From a virus: DNA of 60,471 bases. Numbering within the stretch: position 1 is the first letter of the stretch; every line of letters begins with the position of its first letter. Under the pieces are notes generated by a model that saw only the letters and a program-made list of their open reading frames with translations, had not been told where the DNA came from and made no database searches. The position numbers and the translations under genes were made by a program. Location of the stretch: positions 1 through 60,471 of the IMG/VR virus record IMGVR_UViG_3300050821_001577; one strand, 5' to 3'. Positions 2 to 57,790 of the stretch are shown one piece after another.

Positions 2-391
2 GGTATCGAAGTGGCCCAAAGCCAACTGCCTATTTTGAAACGTGATGGACGATTGCCATTTTCGTTTCTTTGGCATCTAACTTGCGCCCTTCAATCCGCT
101 TGTGTTGCGCGAGTGCCGCTTTGCATTTGCCCCGTTCTGGGAATACGTCGCGATTCTCAAATTCTCTATCCGGTTGTCCAGCCGATCTCCATTTATGTGA
201 TCGATCAACTTTCCTTCTGGATCCTCTCCGTACTCCATCAACCATGCCATCCGATGTGCCAGCATCATCTTGCCGTTCACCCGGATATATCTATAACCAT
301 GGCCGGTTATCGTTCCTGCCTCTTTCTTCCAAAAGAACTGACCTGTCTTTTTGTTGTAAACAAGTTCTTCGTTGAGTTCTTTGTAGTCCAT
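2..391 (-). pseudogene. HNH/AP2 homing endonuclease, interrupted by in-frame amber codon and cut by window edge
   Basis: The first 104 residues are a free-standing HNH endonuclease of the same type as those at 2010, 52994 and 57281: an N-terminal YNKKTGQFFWKK strand, HRMAWLMEYG, the HNH core IDHINGDRLDNRIENLR, then the start of the AP2-like DNA-binding repeat (NTSGLKGAS). A TAG at 77-79 then stops it, but the same frame stays open to the window edge and encodes a recognisable continuation of the AP2 domain (MPKKRKWQSS...LALGHFDT). The TAG sits where sister genes have an aromatic residue, so a TGG-to-TAG change is likely. The gene lies just downstream of the major capsid gene. It is probably a decaying homing gene; readthrough is possible but unsupported. 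Confidence 0.8.
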
Positions 392-2009: not shown

Positions 2010-2537
2010 TTAGTTTACCTCGTGTAGCGGCGAGAACTCGCCGAAATATTTGAGTTCTGCTGTTTGTCTAGCAGCGGCGGCACTATCCAAAGTGTCGAAG
2101 TATCCAAGCCATATCTGCTTCCCATCGACCCTTATTCTTGAGCAAAGACGCCCGCTTTTTCCCTCAATCGTTACTCCACGCACGCCCGTAGGATTATCCT
2201 TGCGGAGTGACATATTCCGATTGTTCTGGGTGTAAGTGGCGAGACGCAGATTGATCCATTTATCATTCCGTGGATCGCGGTCTTTGTGGTCCACCCCATG
2301 CTGAGGCCATTCGCCAGTCTGTAGGAACCAAATCAGATGGATGGCCATATATTCGTGGCCTTTGTAGCCAACAATTTTGTAGCCATCGGCGTTAACACAG
2401 CCAGCAGGACCGGCGGCAACGCCGCGGCGCGGCGGTCGCTTCCAATTCAGAGCGCCAGTCAACGGATCATACGAAAGCAGAGAACGAGCCAGCTCAAGGC
2501 TCAGTTCATCTTCTTTCTGTCGAACACGTGACGGCAT
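2010..2537 (-). CDS. HNH homing endonuclease with AP2 domain
   Basis: A 175-residue free-standing HNH endonuclease: N-terminal LLSYDPLTGALNWKRPP module, HLIWFLQTGEWP, core VDHKDRDPRNDKWINLRLATYTQN (residues about 80-105), then an AP2-type DNA-binding domain (GVRGVTIEGKSGR...WLGYFDT). It probably nicks or cuts DNA at an allelic site lacking the gene. The stop codon TAA is immediately followed by the ATG of the decoration-like gene, so insertion did not disturb the downstream start. It is paralogous to the HNH genes at 2, 52994 and 57281. Confidence 0.92.
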   Translation of the reverse strand: MPSRVRQKEDELSLELARSLLSYDPLTGALNWKRPPRRGVAAGPAGCVNADGYKIVGYKGHEYMAIHLIWFLQTGEWPQHGVDHKDRDPRNDKWINLRLATYTQNNRNMSLRKDNPTGVRGVTIEGKSGRLCSRIRVDGKQIWLGYFDTLDSAAAARQTAELKYFGEFSPLHEVN

Positions 2538-4742: not shown

Positions 4743-5491
4743 TCTGCTGCCATCTGCTTCACGGCATCAACCAACGTCAGAGGCGACGCGTTCTGCTCTC
4801 TTTCCGTGAGATATTGGATGTAGTTACCCTTGTACGAATATTGCCCGACATGCTCGATGTCATGCTCAAGCGAGGCCCAGATATCGCCTCCGCAGGTTCG
4901 CCAACGCTGGCAGAACGCAAGATCCTCGGACAACTTGCCGGCCTGATTATCGTCCGGGTTATCGAACGTATCGAACAGCCTCAGAATGCGTCCGCCGAGC
5001 ATGTCCTTTGCCGCGTGATACGTCATCCGGGTATCGATAACCTCAGGCATCTGCTTAAGCATGATATCAACGGCATCGCGGCGGATCAGAAAACAGCCCA
5101 TGCCTAGCCCAGCTACCGTCATGAAGTTGCCGTTGCGCTTCACGTCTTTCTCAGCAAGCCCCGATGCTGCCCATTGAATCGGCAACGTCTTCTTGGGATA
5201 GATCGCGCCAACCATCGGCTCATTGAGCAAGATCATGTCAAGCACGACCTGAGGCCCAAAGCTCATATCCGAATCAATGAACAGCATATGCGTCGCGTCG
5301 GGACATCCGTCATACCATCCCGTCAGCATGATATTCCGCGCCTCGCTCACATCTGGATAGCTGAATGCCGCGATACCGCCTCGGATGTTCCGTGACGAAA
5401 ACATCTGAATCAAGGCATGGGTGGTGTTGAGCGTCGGGACCGAGACAACATTGCCATACGCGGGCAGGCAAACGAGGATGTTGGGCGTCAT
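4739..5491 (-). CDS. Glycosyltransferase family 2-like protein
   Basis: A 250-residue protein with a clear GT-A organisation: LVCLPAYGNVVSVPT at the N-terminus, ARNIMLTGW helix, the metal/nucleotide site LFIDSDMSF (DSD at 73-75), a VGAIYPKK segment, and a late acidic SEDLAFCQRWRTCGGDIW motif that matches the catalytic-base region of GT2 enzymes. It probably glycosylates a surface or virion target. It overlaps its neighbours by ATGA; the HNH gene at 5488 was inserted directly upstream. Confidence 0.85.
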   Translation of the reverse strand: MTPNILVCLPAYGNVVSVPTLNTTHALIQMFSSRNIRGGIAAFSYPDVSEARNIMLTGWYDGCPDATHMLFIDSDMSFGPQVVLDMILLNEPMVGAIYPKKTLPIQWAASGLAEKDVKRNGNFMTVAGLGMGCFLIRRDAVDIMLKQMPEVIDTRMTYHAAKDMLGGRILRLFDTFDNPDDNQAGKLSEDLAFCQRWRTCGGDIWASLEHDIEHVGQYSYKGNYIQYLTEREQNASPLTLVDAVKQMAAE

Positions 5492-6315
5492 TCTAACGAA
5501 ATTCCTTGTTGAGCGGCTTTCTTGGCTGCAATAGTCGCAAACCTTTTAGCCTGAATGGCTGCGTTAACTTCTGGAGTTCTAGGCTTCTTTTTCATGGCAG
5601 AAGCTCGCATGGCTCCCATCCCCTCCTGAGAAAAAGTTCGCCCATTTGGCCATTTTTTCTTTCCTCTAGCCGCTTCTCCATTTTTTCTGATCTTTTCTAA
5701 CCATTCCGGGGTCAGAACTCTGCCATTTGGCCATTTTTTCTTGCCCTTATGGGCTAGGCTCATATTACGCCGACCTTCTTCTGAGATTGGTTTTCTGTTT
5801 GGATACTTCATTCCAGTCTTAGCCTTCACCATTTTAGCAATGGTCTCTGGCGAAAGCGTTCGGCCTTTCATTCTTCTAGAAATTCTTTCACCAAATTCCT
5901 TGGGAAATTTTCGACCTTTATTGATTGCTGATATTTTTGCCGAAAAACCTGGAGGCATTTTCTTGCCTCGTTTAGCCGCCGCTATATTTTCTCTCGCTTG
6001 AAGCGAAAGAACCCTTTTCTTCGAAACCTTGGCCGCTTCATCAATAACGAGCGCCATATCATCAGGCTTCTTTTTAAGCCTATAGCTGATCAGAAGCGCA
6101 GAATACCAATCTTTATTCTCGCGATGAACTGCGTAATGATCCGCTACAGAAAGCGCAATCCAATTGGATGGATCGTTATTGTTAGGATTGAAATCGGCAT
6201 GATGAATATCGAATGTCACACCATATTCATCGATCGGTATTGGTCCATTCAAGGCGATCCACGCTTGACGTATCCTCTTTTGAGACATCAAGCGGACCGT
6301 TCTTCCTTTTCTCAT
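5488..6315 (-). CDS. HNH endonuclease with NUMOD3 repeats
   Basis: A 275-residue homing-type endonuclease. The HNH core is near the N-terminus (IHHADFNPNNNDPSNWIALSVADHYAVH, about 37-64). The C-terminal two thirds is a chain of lysine-rich NUMOD3-like DNA-binding repeats (GRTLSPETIAKMVKAK, KPISEEGRRNMSLAHKGKKKWPNG, then two more ending in KKWPNGR). The ATG follows directly on the TAA of the upstream gene, and the end overlaps the glycosyltransferase start (ATGA), so the insertion is seamless. Confidence 0.9.
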   Translation of the reverse strand: MRKGRTVRLMSQKRIRQAWIALNGPIPIDEYGVTFDIHHADFNPNNNDPSNWIALSVADHYAVHRENKDWYSALLISYRLKKKPDDMALVIDEAAKVSKKRVLSLQARENIAAAKRGKKMPPGFSAKISAINKGRKFPKEFGERISRRMKGRTLSPETIAKMVKAKTGMKYPNRKPISEEGRRNMSLAHKGKKKWPNGRVLTPEWLEKIRKNGEAARGKKKWPNGRTFSQEGMGAMRASAMKKKPRTPEVNAAIQAKRFATIAAKKAAQQGISLE

Positions 6316-10031: not shown

Positions 10032-10757
10032 TCAGACAAGCATTCCATTCAATCTTGCAAAATCTATAGGATCTTTGGCTTGTTTACGCAAGTTACAGGT
10101 TACGCAAGTGATTTGAATATTCGACCTATTGTTTGACCCACCTTTAGCTATCGGAATGATGTGGTCAACGTGATATTTCTTTCCCACTTTGATCCGACAA
10201 TAAGCACACTTACCCTTCTGTGCTTTCAAAATCCAGTTTAAATCATCTGCCGTATAGCTTCCACCAGCATTTCGCTGCTTGGCTCGCCGCTTCCCATGAT
10301 GCGATTTGTTTCTTTCTGGATTTTTTAAACGCCACAAACGCGACGCATTACGCTGCTTTTCTCGTATATGAGGATCAGCCAATCTCCGCTCTCTTTGCCG
10401 TGACGGCGACTGAGATGGAACATTTTTAGCTTTTTCTGGATTATTCATTCTCCAGGTTTTAAGAGATTCGCGTAACGAGGCTCTATTCTTCTTACGCCAT
10501 TCGCGTCTTTCATCAGTCTTATAGTTCTTCTTAGCCGATCTATTAGCAATAACCTTCCTACCTTCAGGATTTTCCTTATTCCATCTAGCCACAGCAATAT
10601 TAACGCACGCTATACACCGACCCAAACCATTAACATATCTTTCACTCAGATGGCCGTGACGACATGATTTTCCGGTAAAGAAGCGTTTTAATCCTAACTC
10701 GGTTGCATCTTTACGAGAAATGATCTTAAGATTGTCGGTAGCCAAATCGAACCTCAC
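10032..10757 (-). CDS. HNH endonuclease (zinc-binding McrA-like type)
   Basis: A 241-residue protein with GTG start. The N-terminal part (SCRHGHLSERYVNGLGRCIAC) is a small Cys/His metal site typical of phage HNH proteins; a lysine/arginine-rich helical middle follows; the catalytic HNH domain is C-terminal: KGKCAYCRIKV, YHVDHIIPIAKGGSNN, ITCVTCNLRK, i.e. two CxxC zinc ligands around the DH core. It belongs to a different subfamily from the AP2-type genes. It sits in an intergenic slot bounded by hairpins. Confidence 0.92.
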   Translation of the reverse strand: MRFDLATDNLKIISRKDATELGLKRFFTGKSCRHGHLSERYVNGLGRCIACVNIAVARWNKENPEGRKVIANRSAKKNYKTDERREWRKKNRASLRESLKTWRMNNPEKAKNVPSQSPSRQRERRLADPHIREKQRNASRLWRLKNPERNKSHHGKRRAKQRNAGGSYTADDLNWILKAQKGKCAYCRIKVGKKYHVDHIIPIAKGGSNNRSNIQITCVTCNLRKQAKDPIDFARLNGMLV

Positions 10758-16783: not shown

Positions 16784-17067
16784 CAGAATGCCCTCACAAA
16801 ATACCATGCCAGATCAGCGGTAACCATCAGAAACCCTACGATGGTCCAGAAACCAAATACCTTCAGGTCAAACTGATCATGAGCGTTCTGAATGCTCCAA
16901 AACCTACCATCCCAATTCGGATCATGATCGAACCAGATATTTGTCGGCAACTCAGCGCTGCCATACATATTCCTGGTGACTTCTTCCCATCTCTGATCCG
17001 GCGTCCGATAAGGCTTGTCAGGCCTGACTTCGCCGGGGCGCGGGATGATGGTTTCGAGGTCCGTCAT
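16783..17067 (-). CDS. C-terminally anchored membrane protein
   Basis: A 94-residue protein with a soluble N-terminal part (about 1-65) and one C-terminal transmembrane helix (FGFWTIVGFLMVTADLAWYFV, 71-91). It starts just inside the end of terL (ATGA). Not recognised; such single-anchor proteins are scattered among the small genes of this genome. Confidence 0.7.
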   Translation of the reverse strand: MTDLETIIPRPGEVRPDKPYRTPDQRWEEVTRNMYGSAELPTNIWFDHDPNWDGRFWSIQNAHDQFDLKVFGFWTIVGFLMVTADLAWYFVRAF

Positions 17068-19781
17068 GCCGATCTCCTGCTGAAACCTGGATAGAGTGCC
17101 CGCTTAGGTGCCCCACGATGCCTCACCGCGTCCAACTCCTGTGCCCGGCGCTCCTCATCGCTGCGGATCAAACCGGTGTCGCGGAGATGCTTGATCGCCT
17201 GCGTCATCGAATCAAACAAATCATCATGAGTTCCGTAGGGGAAAAGCGCGCACTCATCAATGACCTTCCCAGCATAGTCGAATTCTTCTGGATCCGGCGC
17301 ATAAATCATCTCTTGAGAGAACGAAGGCACAATAGCCATGCCGCGGGCCATCTTATCTCCCTTGGGCTCAACAAGTTGGATCGTCCATCCTTGCCGTCCA
17401 TGGGCATTCCGCAGAGATTGAGCGGCAGATATGCCAGAAGCCTTTGACTCTATTAACAATTTGTCTGCTTTGAACCGATTGCAGCTATCCGCAACCCATT
17501 CGATCAGTCCCCAGAAAGGGCGCGCTCGGATCTTGTATGTCGATTCATGCTCGTTTGGCAGAATATCAATCTTGGGACCGGAAAACTCAAGCCGCTTTGA
17601 CCATGCATGGATCAGCATTGCCCGATTATAGCCATGCTCGTTCTGGAACACACCCCAGATCGTCAATGCAGATGGATCGTTCTTTTCTTCCTCAGTATAA
17701 GCGCCGTCTAGACTGGCCACGATATATTCAAACGGTGGGAACTTGCGACCAGTCATATAAATCTCGGCTGGCATCCACCACTCACGCTTAATCAGGCCAC
17801 CGCCACGAGCCTCTGGCGTCTGCTGGAGTTGGCTGGCAGTCGCATAGGGACCAAGTTCAATCTTGAGGCTTTGAACCGATCGTTCCGAGAAACGGTCAAT
17901 CCAAGCTAACTCACCCTCGCAATCATCTTGGTTCGCTCGCCACCGCGGATCAACCCAGCCAATCGAAGTTGTGTACGGCTCGCCATTGTCGTCTGCCTGC
18001 CACACATACTCCATTGGAATGCAGAGATGACAATATGGTAGCTGAAGCCGAAGGATCTCGCCGGAAACGTCTGCCTCACTGACACGCTGAGATATGACAA
18101 TCTTTGCATCGGTCTCCATGCTGTTCAGACGTGACGACAGAGATTCCCGAAACCAGCGGTTGGTTTCGTCCATGACCGCTTTGGATTCGCTCTCTTTCAC
18201 GTTATTTAAATCGTCGCAGTTGGAGCAAATTATGTTTGCACCATCTCCGCACAACATGTTATGGTTCCCCTCCACCGTGATGCAAAACGTTTCAGAGGGA
18301 ATTTCATGCAACAAATCGACAGAAACGACGCGAACGAAAGATGGCTTCCAGTAGTCGGGTTTGAAGGGATTTACGAGGTTTCCGACCTTGGCCGAGTTCG
18401 CAGCATGCCGCGCGTCGTGGTGCGGCGCAGACACTTGGCTATCCACAACGACAGAATCAGCCATGAGAAATGCGAACATGAGATGGTTAACTCTGGCAAG
18501 ATAATGACTGGCACGATTTGCGAAGGATATCCGCGCGTCTCGCTTCGCCGCGATGGCAAGACTTTCTATCGGATGTGCCACGTTTTGGTGGCCGCAGCAT
18601 TCTTGGGGCCGTGCCCCGAAGGCGAGGAGGTTCGCCATAAAGATGGTAATCGAGGCGATGCCAGTCTCAGCAATATCGAATATGGAACGCGGGCTCAGAA
18701 CATTGCCGATTGCAAAAGGCACGGAACATTTCGGAATGGCGCGTCGCATCTTACCGAGGACATGGTTCGCCAGATTGCGGCTCGCCATTACGAGACCGCT
18801 GCGGATCTTGGCAAAGAATTTGGGGTAAGCGGGGGCACCATCGCCGGCATCAGAAATCGGCGGATCTGGAAGCATTTGAACTTGGACTTGCTCCCGACCT
18901 ATCGCAGGAGCGGCGATCTCCACCCGGCTAGGCGCGGCAATAAGACGATGCCCGATTCGGATATCTGACGCAAACCTGTAGCCTTCATCGCCTAGAATGA
19001 GATGGTCCAAGGTGCAGGTCACGCTTGAACCATTCTCTAGTCCGACCCTAACCAAGTGGCGCCCCGGATTCGTATGCCAGCCAATGACCGGCTTGAGTTC
19101 TAATTTTCCGGTAGATCGATTGTATGACCAAACCGGCAAATCCATCCTGTTCTTGACAAACTTTCCGATGGCGATTGGCCCGATGGCGGTATCAATAAGT
19201 TGATCTGACGGAAAGCAGATGGCTCGGTTGCCGCGCTTACCAGTGACCGAGCCTGTAACCGAGCTCGCCAGCTTCCAGCCATGTTTCCGGTTGGAAACCA
19301 TCGTCATGCCGTTCTGGCGGATCGCGACATGGGGATACATGGCCTGATAATCGGTCGACGACACCAGATCGCCAAACCGCTGATTGTCGCGCTCGGTATT
19401 GCTGGAACTATACGAGAACGTCACGTACCGGAGATGGGCGAGGTCCATCGCCCCCCATTCCCATGCTGGCCAGAATACGTTGGTCAGCAGCGACTTCATC
19501 GCTCCAGGGAATACATTGATGAGGAGATTGGTTATTTCCCCGTAGGTGACCGCCTCAAGGTGCTCACAGATGGCCTCCAGAACCCACCCATCAACGAACG
19601 GCGTGCCAGGCTCCAGCACATGCCAGAAATACCGCACGAAGCTCAGCAAGCCACCCTGCCACACCCCGTCCTCATCTCGGTAGCCTCTGGTCTGATGCTC
19701 AGCCTTGGCTATCCTGCGGCGCTTCTCGGCTAATGCTGCGTTGAAGCGCTCAAGATCGGCACGGGGAATAGGCTTGTTCAT
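17064..19781 (-). CDS. terL: Terminase large subunit containing an intein
   Basis: A 905-residue precursor; after removal of a 333-residue intein the terminase is 572 residues, a normal size. N-extein: Walker A VFPGAMKSL (90-98, Lys97), the TGSVTGKRGNRAI stretch. The intein runs Cys189-Asn521 and Cys522 is the +1 residue, so splicing rebuilds the Walker B region RAI-CDDLNN (522-527). C-extein: nuclease motifs SLDGAY, LLIESKASG and the late DDLFDSMTQ. The enzyme translocates DNA through the portal and cuts it. The start ATG overlaps the small HTH gene (ATGA). The central part of the intein is antisense to an HNH gene at 18306. Confidence 0.93.
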   Translation of the reverse strand: MNKPIPRADLERFNAALAEKRRRIAKAEHQTRGYRDEDGVWQGGLLSFVRYFWHVLEPGTPFVDGWVLEAICEHLEAVTYGEITNLLINVFPGAMKSLLTNVFWPAWEWGAMDLAHLRYVTFSYSSSNTERDNQRFGDLVSSTDYQAMYPHVAIRQNGMTMVSNRKHGWKLASSVTGSVTGKRGNRAICFPSDQLIDTAIGPIAIGKFVKNRMDLPVWSYNRSTGKLELKPVIGWHTNPGRHLVRVGLENGSSVTCTLDHLILGDEGYRFASDIRIGHRLIAAPSRVEIAAPAIGREQVQVQMLPDPPISDAGDGAPAYPKFFAKIRSGLVMASRNLANHVLGKMRRAIPKCSVPFAIGNVLSPRSIFDIAETGIASITIFMANLLAFGARPQECCGHQNVAHPIESLAIAAKRDARISFANRASHYLARVNHLMFAFLMADSVVVDSQVSAPHHDARHAANSAKVGNLVNPFKPDYWKPSFVRVVSVDLLHEIPSETFCITVEGNHNMLCGDGANIICSNCDDLNNVKESESKAVMDETNRWFRESLSSRLNSMETDAKIVISQRVSEADVSGEILRLQLPYCHLCIPMEYVWQADDNGEPYTTSIGWVDPRWRANQDDCEGELAWIDRFSERSVQSLKIELGPYATASQLQQTPEARGGGLIKREWWMPAEIYMTGRKFPPFEYIVASLDGAYTEEEKNDPSALTIWGVFQNEHGYNRAMLIHAWSKRLEFSGPKIDILPNEHESTYKIRARPFWGLIEWVADSCNRFKADKLLIESKASGISAAQSLRNAHGRQGWTIQLVEPKGDKMARGMAIVPSFSQEMIYAPDPEEFDYAGKVIDECALFPYGTHDDLFDSMTQAIKHLRDTGLIRSDEERRAQELDAVRHRGAPKRALYPGFSRRSA
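18219..19217 (-). mobile_element. Intein coding segment within terL
   Basis: 999 bp coding residues 189-521 of the terL product. Block A: CFPSDQLIDTAIGPI beginning with the nucleophilic Cys189 (TGC at 19215-19217). Block B: GSSVTCTLDHLIL with the TxxH signature (Thr257, His260). Block F: VVSVDLLHEIPSETFCITVEG. Block G: ANIICSN ending in Asn521 (AAC at 18219-18221), then Cys522 of the extein. The residue before the terminal Asn is Ser instead of the usual His. No in-frame endonuclease motif (LAGLIDADG or HNH) is present; the middle ~200 residues are the reverse of the HNH gene on the other strand. Confidence 0.9.
18306..18968 (+). CDS. HNH endonuclease (NUMOD4) nested antisense inside the terL intein
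   Basis: A 220-residue protein read on the plus strand, wholly inside the intein. Start ATG at 18306, 6 nt after AGAGGG. Domains: NUMOD4 at about 12-33 (ERWLPVVGFEGIYEVSDLGR), HNH core (YRMCHVLVAAAFLG, then EEVRHKDGNRGDASLSNIEYGTRAQN, about 90-140), and a C-terminal helix-turn-helix (ETAADLGKEFGVSGGTIAGI). All expected domains are complete, so it is very probably functional, not a shadow. Codons lie exactly opposite terL codons, which forces the absence of TTA, CTA and TCA. It probably mobilises the intein or itself. Confidence 0.88.
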   Translation: MQQIDRNDANERWLPVVGFEGIYEVSDLGRVRSMPRVVVRRRHLAIHNDRISHEKCEHEMVNSGKIMTGTICEGYPRVSLRRDGKTFYRMCHVLVAAAFLGPCPEGEEVRHKDGNRGDASLSNIEYGTRAQNIADCKRHGTFRNGASHLTEDMVRQIAARHYETAADLGKEFGVSGGTIAGIRNRRIWKHLNLDLLPTYRRSGDLHPARRGNKTMPDSDI

Positions 19782-52993: not shown

Positions 52994-53515
52994 TTAAGCC
53001 CCCGAAGAATGGAAATCACCGTGCAATTCCTTTGCTTTGGCGAGATAGGCTAAATGGGCAGAATATGGATCGTCAAAGAAACCAGCATGATGCCTCTTAC
53101 CGTGTTTTACCACGAGGGCAGCAAATTTACCTTTCTGTTTGCTGAAGTGTACTCCCTTGTATCCAGAGGTATTGTCTTGACGAACCCCGCAATTCGCATG
53201 ATTTTGCGAGTGAGAAGCTTCCCTCAGATTGGCTAGTCGATTGTCGTCCCTAACTCGATTAATGTGGTCAATTTCATCCTTTGGCCACATGCCATGGGTC
53301 ATCAACCAAGCTAGGCGATGAGCAAAATAGTAATGGCCGTCAATCCTAATCCGCCAATGTCCGCGGCAGGCATACCCGCCAGCAATCTTCCCGATTGGAG
53401 ATCGGTCACTGAGTTTGACCTTCCATCGGAAAATGCCGGTCTTTGGATCATAAGAGAGAACTTCGCTTACACGGTCAAAATCTAGTCCGTACTTGACGTC
53501 TCTATTCCCACACAT
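52994..53515 (-). CDS. HNH homing endonuclease with AP2 domain
   Basis: A 173-residue paralogue of the genes at 2, 2010 and 57281: VLSYDPKTGIFRWKVK, HRLAWLMTHGMWP, HNH core EIDHINRVRDDNRLANLREA, AP2 part NTSGYKGVHFSKQKGKFAAL...HAGFFDD. The stop TAA is directly followed by the ATG of the 975-aa virion gene, the same seamless junction as at 2010. Confidence 0.92.
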   Translation of the reverse strand: MCGNRDVKYGLDFDRVSEVLSYDPKTGIFRWKVKLSDRSPIGKIAGGYACRGHWRIRIDGHYYFAHRLAWLMTHGMWPKDEIDHINRVRDDNRLANLREASHSQNHANCGVRQDNTSGYKGVHFSKQKGKFAALVVKHGKRHHAGFFDDPYSAHLAYLAKAKELHGDFHSSGA

Positions 53516-57280: not shown

Positions 57281-57790
57281 CTACCCCGCATTCGCATATT
57301 GGCCATACTTTTCTATAGCCGCAGCAATATAAGCCGAATGGGCTTCTTTAGGCGAGCTAAATAGACCCAAGTGGCGCTGAGCTAACCGTGCCTGCCATCG
57401 CTTTGATGGTTTATGAAAACGCACACCTTTGTAACCCGAAGAACAATCTCCTCGTACACATCTATTAGCATTATTTTGAGAAAATGTTGCCAGTCTCAAA
57501 TTGGCAATCGCATTGTTTCTCCTATTCATGTCACGGTGATCAATCTGATCCGGCCATACACCATGGACATAAAACCAGGCAAGACGATGGGCCATATACA
57601 TTCGATAGTCTATAACGATAGAAAGATACCCATTGCTATCGGTTCCAGCCAAACTGCCGATCTTCCATTTAACGAATTTATTGACACCTGACCCCCACCG
57701 GAGAATCCCGGTCTCTGGATCATAATCCAGGACCGATCTCAATCTTTCCAGCGTAACGTCTGGGGCCGTTAGTTTTGTCTTTGCTGCCAC
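57281..57790 (-). CDS. HNH homing endonuclease with AP2 domain
   Basis: A 169-residue paralogue: VLDYDPETGILRWGSG, HRLAWFYVHGVWP, core QIDHRDMNRRNNAIANLRLAT, AP2 part SSGYKGVRFHKPSKRWQARL...LGLFSSPKEAHSAY. It lies between the collar fibre and hub genes, 5 bp from the hub start. The complete AP2 part shows where the amber lies in the copy at 2-391. Confidence 0.92.
   Translation of the reverse strand: MAAKTKLTAPDVTLERLRSVLDYDPETGILRWGSGVNKFVKWKIGSLAGTDSNGYLSIVIDYRMYMAHRLAWFYVHGVWPDQIDHRDMNRRNNAIANLRLATFSQNNANRCVRGDCSSGYKGVRFHKPSKRWQARLAQRHLGLFSSPKEAHSAYIAAAIEKYGQYANAG

Follow-up and report, generated by a model that had tools for sequence, protein, structure and literature searches.

Within an IMG/VR virus record, analysed here over its whole length of 60,471 bp (the window), the gene for the large terminase subunit, terL, is interrupted by an intein, and the strand opposite the middle of that intein carries a second gene with the domains of an HNH homing endonuclease. 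The terL precursor is a single open frame on the minus strand, and the codons of the second gene, on the plus strand, are exact reverse complements of terL codons. The features of the locus, in positions of the window, are as follows.

17064-19781, minus strand: terL precursor (large terminase subunit plus intein), 905 amino acids, single open frame
19218-19781, minus strand: N-extein, terL residues 1-188, ending in GNRAI (Walker B region), from the alignment with the relative L003
18219-19217, minus strand: intein of 333 amino acids, terL residues 189-521, from Cys1 to Asn333 and followed by Cys+1 (TIGR01445, TIGR01443, PF14890)
18924-19217, minus strand: N-terminal half of the Hint domain, intein residues 1-98 (AlphaFold model confidence, pLDDT, ~95)
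18351-18923, minus strand: middle of the intein, residues 99-289, in the terL frame a filler that is the antisense of the HNH gene (pLDDT ~33)
18219-18350, minus strand: C-terminal half of the Hint domain, intein residues 290-333, with blocks F and G (TIGR01443; pLDDT 86-95)
17064-18218, minus strand: C-extein, terL residues 522-905, beginning CDDLNN (Cys+1), from the alignment with L003, whose empty site reads I/CDDLNN
18306-18968, plus strand, stop included: antisense homing endonuclease gene, 220 amino acids, NUMOD4-HNH with a C-terminal helical (helix-turn-helix-like) region (Pfam, PHROG and I-HmuI matches)
18294-18299, plus strand: Shine-Dalgarno-like AGAGGG, 6 nt before the ATG and antisense to codons of Hint block F (read from the sequence)
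18306-18308, plus strand: ATG start of the HNH gene, reverse complement of terL His492 (CAT)
18336-18548, plus strand: NUMOD4, HNH residues 11-81 (PF07463)
18573-18701, plus strand: HNH nuclease core, residues 90-132 (PF13392)

The precursor falls in the terL family (phrog_38 terminase large subunit, E 9e-65; TIGR01630, E 2e-9), and its N-extein shares 97.9% amino acid identity with that of L003, whose terL is intein-free, reads continuously through ...GNRAI/CDDLNN... and lacks exactly residues 189-521 of the window protein. Together with matches to TIGR01445 at terL residues 189-263 (E 2.3e-8) and TIGR01443 at 497-522 (E 1.8e-3), this exact empty site bears out the intein borders proposed in a first-pass annotation of the window; the Pfam model Intein_splicing (PF14890) also matches the intein, below its cut-off. 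Residues C1, T69, H72 and N333 are invariant across 20 related loci, the +1 residue is Cys, and the two Hint halves match the splicing domain of the Mtu RecA intein (Foldseek, E 8e-8). By these residues, the Hint fold and the empty site, the insertion is predicted to be a true intein. An endonuclease overlooked in the terL frame was ruled out, in keeping with the first-pass annotation: residues 99-289 match no Pfam or NCBIfam domain and are modelled as disordered (AlphaFold, pLDDT ~33). The element thus departs from the usual full-length intein, in that its endonuclease is not fused in the same polypeptide.

The plus-strand product passes the Pfam cut-offs for both NUMOD4 (E 9.5e-15, 55.0 bits against 23.4) and HNH_3 (E 2.6e-13, 49.8 bits against 24.8), and matches the PHROG HNH endonuclease family at E 8e-44. 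Its AlphaFold model, built on an alignment of 24 rows, has a mean pLDDT of 86 and finds I-HmuI as its best Foldseek match (PDB 1u3e, E 7.5e-8; profile E 4e-14), and H111, N123 and N132 of the HNH core are invariant among relatives. On domains and residues we assign it to the NUMOD4-HNH homing endonucleases of the I-HmuI kind, with predicted activity. The earlier description of a full NUMOD4-HNH gene with AGAGGG 6 nt ahead of its ATG, lying in register with terL and free of the codons TTA, CTA and TCA, proved correct on every point.

Recurrence and selection on two strands

The arrangement recurs. Searches with terL, HNH and intein profiles returned, once duplicate contigs had been removed, at least 22 non-redundant loci with an antisense HNH gene inside a terL intein: the window, L082, L083, L084, L086-L089, L091-L093, L095, L096, L098, L101, L106, L115, L119, L126, L165, L176 and L177. 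L082 is the cultured Escherichia phage BUCT618 (OM735461), where the annotation records a terminase only, and L165 is a Clostridia metagenome-assembled genome; no match to the BUCT618 intein was found in the E. coli genomes searched. In all 20 loci analysed in detail the HNH gene has the same register and occupies the same Walker B site of terL. Its chosen start codon faces a His codon near Hint block F, CAT being the complement of ATG, and nearly all relatives have His at the equivalent intein position. Two of the 20 genes begin with GTG, and that of L119 starts a few codons further in. Over the 22 loci, pairing with the anti-Shine-Dalgarno sequence is stronger than in shuffled sequences (-6.15 against -3.39 kcal/mol, p 2e-4). 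The HNH proteins share a mean identity of only 39% (minimum 24%), so the arrangement is either old or has arisen more than once.

Among the 20 loci the HNH genes contain none of the codons TTA, CTA and TCA against 85.9 expected (log10 P -45.8), the expectation being computed from the extein codon usage of the same loci, which are not all independent. Even the AT-rich loci L119 and L165 lack them, with 16.6 expected in L165 alone, and 37 of 38 control NUMOD4-HNH genes outside inteins carry at least one. The window on its own gives modest evidence, with none seen and 2.7 expected (P0 0.054, own extein usage). Its six sister HNH genes hold 0, 5, 5, 8, 4 and 5 such codons, so that the comparison with sister genes suggested by the first-pass annotation sets the antisense gene, at zero, against five of six that carry 4-8. 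The overlap is probably both feasible and cheap in this register, because the forbidden codons, for Leu and Ser, all have synonyms.

Counted over 14 pairs, the substitution rates at the three codon positions, given in order, follow the terL frame in the N-extein (.30/.23/.54), the N-terminal Hint half (.30/.23/.56), the C-terminal Hint half (.21/.15/.48) and the C-extein (.29/.24/.53), and follow the HNH frame within the HNH gene (.26/.17/.50). As position 3 of an HNH codon is position 1 of a terL codon, the fast position switches strand inside the HNH gene, and in pairs of equal or near-equal intein length the flip falls near intein residues 80 and 340. In close pairs the ratio of nonsynonymous to synonymous substitution (dN/dS) is 0.09-0.20 in the HNH frame and, when that DNA is read in the intein frame, 1.18-1.68, a value that reflects the geometry of the overlap and not positive selection; the N-terminal Hint half gives 0.08-0.14 in the terL frame. 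Examined on both strands, as had been proposed, the pattern of selection thus flips at the borders of the HNH gene. It follows from this substitution pattern and the missing forbidden codons that the HNH gene is maintained as a protein and the middle of the intein only as a stop-free frame, and the antisense arrangement is recurrent and selected, not confined to one sequence.

One pair of loci bears on how these genes change. L086 and L087 are nearly identical in their exteins and Hint ends, and differ strongly in the C-terminal parts of their HNH proteins and the neighbouring intein residues, which suggests that a DNA-binding module was swapped by recombination.

A probable homing cycle and its alternatives

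We consider it highly probable that phage terL here carries a mobile intein with its homing endonuclease encoded separately, by an antisense gene inside the intein's own coding sequence. The 905-residue TerL precursor would splice out the 333-residue intein by means of Cys1, Asn333 and Cys+1, the work being done by two Hint halves held apart by some 190 residues of filler; that TerL is spliced is suggested by the fold and the catalytic residues. The 220-residue NUMOD4-HNH protein would be made from plus-strand RNA, with a ribosome-binding site and ATG of its own. Its target for cutting or nicking would be the Walker B site in the intein-free terL of a phage infecting the same cell, and repair of that allele would copy the whole intein. 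Cutting and homing are suggested by the enzyme family, by the exactness of the empty site and by the patchy occurrence of the element. One stretch of DNA would in this way serve two genes, the HNH frame being selected for its amino acids and the intein frame for the absence of stops.

Empty, full, decayed and mini forms are the pattern expected of a homing cycle, and all are present here. The site is empty in L003 and in most terL relatives; L003 is otherwise close to the window (91% nucleotide identity in terL upstream of the site, portal protein 88% identical), and in Acinetobacter phages related to BUCT618 the terL DNA matches both flanks of the intein, which is itself absent. At the other end of the cycle L179, L180 and L181 are mini-inteins of ~136-155 amino acids at the same terL site, and L182 has lost the nuclease part and kept the HNH start and DNA-binding tail. 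The antisense strand of L180 retains ~20 codons from the beginning of the HNH gene of its relative L176, fused directly to the gene's 3' end, which marks L180 as a deletion derivative. The search for relatives with and without the HNH gene that the first-pass annotation had recommended thus found 22 full loci, mini-inteins and an empty-site relative. Its suggestion that intact inteins beside a broken HNH frame would mean a dead gene calls for refinement: such inteins exist (L179-L182), but the scar in L180 and the remnant in L182 mark these as later stages of decay, which give no ground for calling the HNH gene of the window dead. Recent co-conversion at the insertion site was considered and not used as evidence, as identities to L003 of 95-96% in the last 120 nt before the site, 90% in the first 60 nt after it and 70-85% further downstream fit conversion or motif conservation alike.

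Several observations weigh against this reading. The penultimate residue of the intein is Ser instead of His. The metal-ligand Asp of I-HmuI is replaced by Arg110 in the window HNH; nearly every NUMOD4-HNH protein of the set has Arg at this position, those outside inteins included. Selection on the window's own HNH gene was gauged by comparison with diverged relatives only. Genetic distances are correlated throughout (Mantel correlations of 0.72 for Hint and HNH, 0.70 for Hint and extein, 0.82 for HNH and extein), implying inheritance largely with the host lineage, and they give no direct sign of recent horizontal homing. In the HNH tree a single clade of antisense genes is neither supported nor rejected (approximately unbiased test, p-AU 0.147). 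Finally, no promoter-like site precedes the HNH gene of the window, where the best score is 7 of 12; the gene as a whole has 2 plus-strand matches, where shuffles give 2.1, and neither lies upstream of the HNH gene, so that a promoter in the window was rejected.

Sigma-70-like sites on the antisense strand ahead of the HNH gene were scored in 19 relatives; the best site of each, mostly 40-53 nt upstream of the start codon, scores 8.58 against 7.33 of 12 under a null of synonymous recoding (p <1e-4, a significance inflated by related loci). These sites hint at an old class of two-strand mobile elements in which the coding region of the C-terminal Hint half contains a separate promoter for the antisense endonuclease, a proposal that we regard as tentative and, on balance, doubtful. 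If it were true, the timing of homing would not depend on the late terL message. The first-pass annotation had held that splicing and homing are kept as two products, possibly under separate transcriptional control; the selection pattern of the relatives supports the first part, and the second is unproven, the window having no such site.

Alternatively, the HNH gene could be a passenger, a free-standing NUMOD4-HNH gene that inserted itself antisense into an older mini-intein and whose homing site is not the terL site of the intein. Such genes are common in phages outside inteins, the phage of L003 has one between its capsid genes, and the HNH tree does not resolve the antisense HNHs into one clade. 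Yet divergent loci share the terL site, the register and a start position opposite the same Hint block, HNH and Hint distances rise together as given above, and L180 and L182 descend from full elements and not the reverse, all of which makes a passenger unlikely.

Lying inside terL, the HNH protein might instead be a domesticated packaging factor that aids the terminase and is kept near its gene for that reason, and HNH proteins are reportedly parts of phage packaging machines (work attributed to Kala and colleagues, 2014). Against this, among solved structures the homing enzyme I-HmuI is its closest relative, and the gene is absent from this site in close intein-free relatives such as L003 and lost in the mini-inteins, so packaging does not need it; we hold such a role to be very improbable. 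Least credible of all is an accidental or dead, functionless open frame: G+C-rich genes do by chance have in-register antisense frames, and taken alone the window's lack of forbidden codons has P ~0.05, but the two Pfam domains, the purifying selection on the HNH frame in relatives, the 0 of 85.9 forbidden codons with AT-rich L119 and L165 included, and the Shine-Dalgarno enrichment speak against it, and for the family chance is rejected by the codon, substitution and control tests.

On the reading of a mobile intein with an antisense endonuclease gene, splicing and homing are divided between two genes, one on each strand of a shared stretch of DNA, with one strand selected for amino acids and the other for the absence of stops only. 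With empty, full, decaying and mini forms to hand, these loci offer a natural system for studying antisense gene overlap and the life cycle of homing elements.

Other hidden endonucleases and HNH genes

Four further terL inteins, at or near the same terL motif, hide a cysteine-rich HNH gene on the same strand in the +1 frame.

L012, 4665-5678: same-strand, +1-frame hidden HNH
L017, 834-1865: same-strand, +1-frame hidden HNH
L187, 1838-2977: same-strand, +1-frame hidden HNH (Gordonia phage Clown)
L189, 1853-2908: same-strand, +1-frame hidden HNH (Streptomyces plasmid)

Codon-position bias is weak among these relatives, as it would be under constraint on both frames or with saturated sequences. 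For L189 (NZ_CP108353.1 85163-89191) the existing annotation splits the hidden HNH from a C-terminal fragment and misses the 905-codon terL-intein frame. A second intein, at 3971-4582 of L003, interrupts the C-terminal RNase H region of its TerL and hides an HNH_3 protein on the same strand in the +2 frame. Overlapping endonucleases in inteins therefore seem to exist in more than one form. The ordinary arrangement is represented by L022 and L038, Walker A site inteins inserted after terL residue 96 with, by eye, in-frame LAGLIDADG-type endonucleases.

Gene finders and intein surveys that read the host frame only would score such elements as endonuclease-free, and hidden endonucleases may be common among the phage inteins so counted.

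HNH-type genes also lie elsewhere in the window, where six are scattered in minus-strand gene clusters:

77-391, minus strand: HNH-type gene
2010-2537, minus strand: HNH-type gene
5488-6315, minus strand: HNH-type gene
10032-10757, minus strand: HNH-type gene
52994-53515, minus strand: HNH-type gene
57281-57790, minus strand: HNH-type gene

In the phage of L003 (L190, 1763-2398) a NUMOD4-HNH open reading frame, on the strand opposite that of the capsid-region genes, overlaps the gap between them.

Comparison with known systems

No antisense endonuclease gene within an intein was found described in the literature, of which subscription papers lay mostly outside coverage, so that absence is no proof; the 'complementary strand' wording of PMC1635734 refers merely to the strand of a read and sets no precedent. 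An intein with its endonuclease outside its own polypeptide, as an antisense gene, thus appears not to have been described before, and to that extent the first-pass annotation's claim of an undescribed arrangement stands; it does not extend to hidden same-strand HNH genes or to antisense endonucleases of introns, both of which have been published.

Phage TerL inteins with in-frame endonucleases are known (Kelley et al. 2016, PMC5050341). Mobile inteins of this sort, with LAGLIDADG or HNH enzymes, resemble the window element in placing Hint in a conserved TerL ATPase motif, in having the endonuclease between the Hint halves and in occurring in empty, full and mini forms; they differ in that the window endonuclease is encoded antisense, behind a start and ribosome-binding site of its own, and faces a disordered filler. 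Closer in its concealment is the ShiLan element of a phage methylase (Arsenault, Gosselin, Gogarten 2025, PMC11855218), where an out-of-frame HNH gene is likewise hidden in an in-frame insertion that leaves the host frame open. There, however, the gene lies on the same strand in the third frame, encodes a zinc-finger HNH rather than a NUMOD4-HNH, has no detectable ribosome-binding site, and is accompanied by neither a Hint domain nor known splicing. With its HNH on the opposite strand and Hint present, the window element is not of the ShiLan type.

I-HmuI, an HNH homing enzyme from a phage, shares the NUMOD4 and HNH fold but is encoded on the sense strand within a group I intron and is only 24% identical in the structural alignment. 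Its Asp-His pair corresponds to Arg-His in the NUMOD4-HNH family of the window. Split inteins of fractured genes, reportedly described by Dassa and colleagues in 2009, are said to carry a free-standing endonuclease between their halves, and so likewise have the enzyme as its own gene within the intein region; the window intein differs in being one continuous polypeptide that the endonuclease overlaps antisense. The strand arrangement itself has its nearest parallel in the antisense homing endonuclease genes of group I introns in ribosomal DNA, such as I-DsqI in Didymium (PMC9548176), where the endonuclease gene also lies opposite the host gene inside a self-splicing element. That element is an RNA intron with no protein frame to keep open opposite the endonuclease, whereas in the window both strands must be read as protein.

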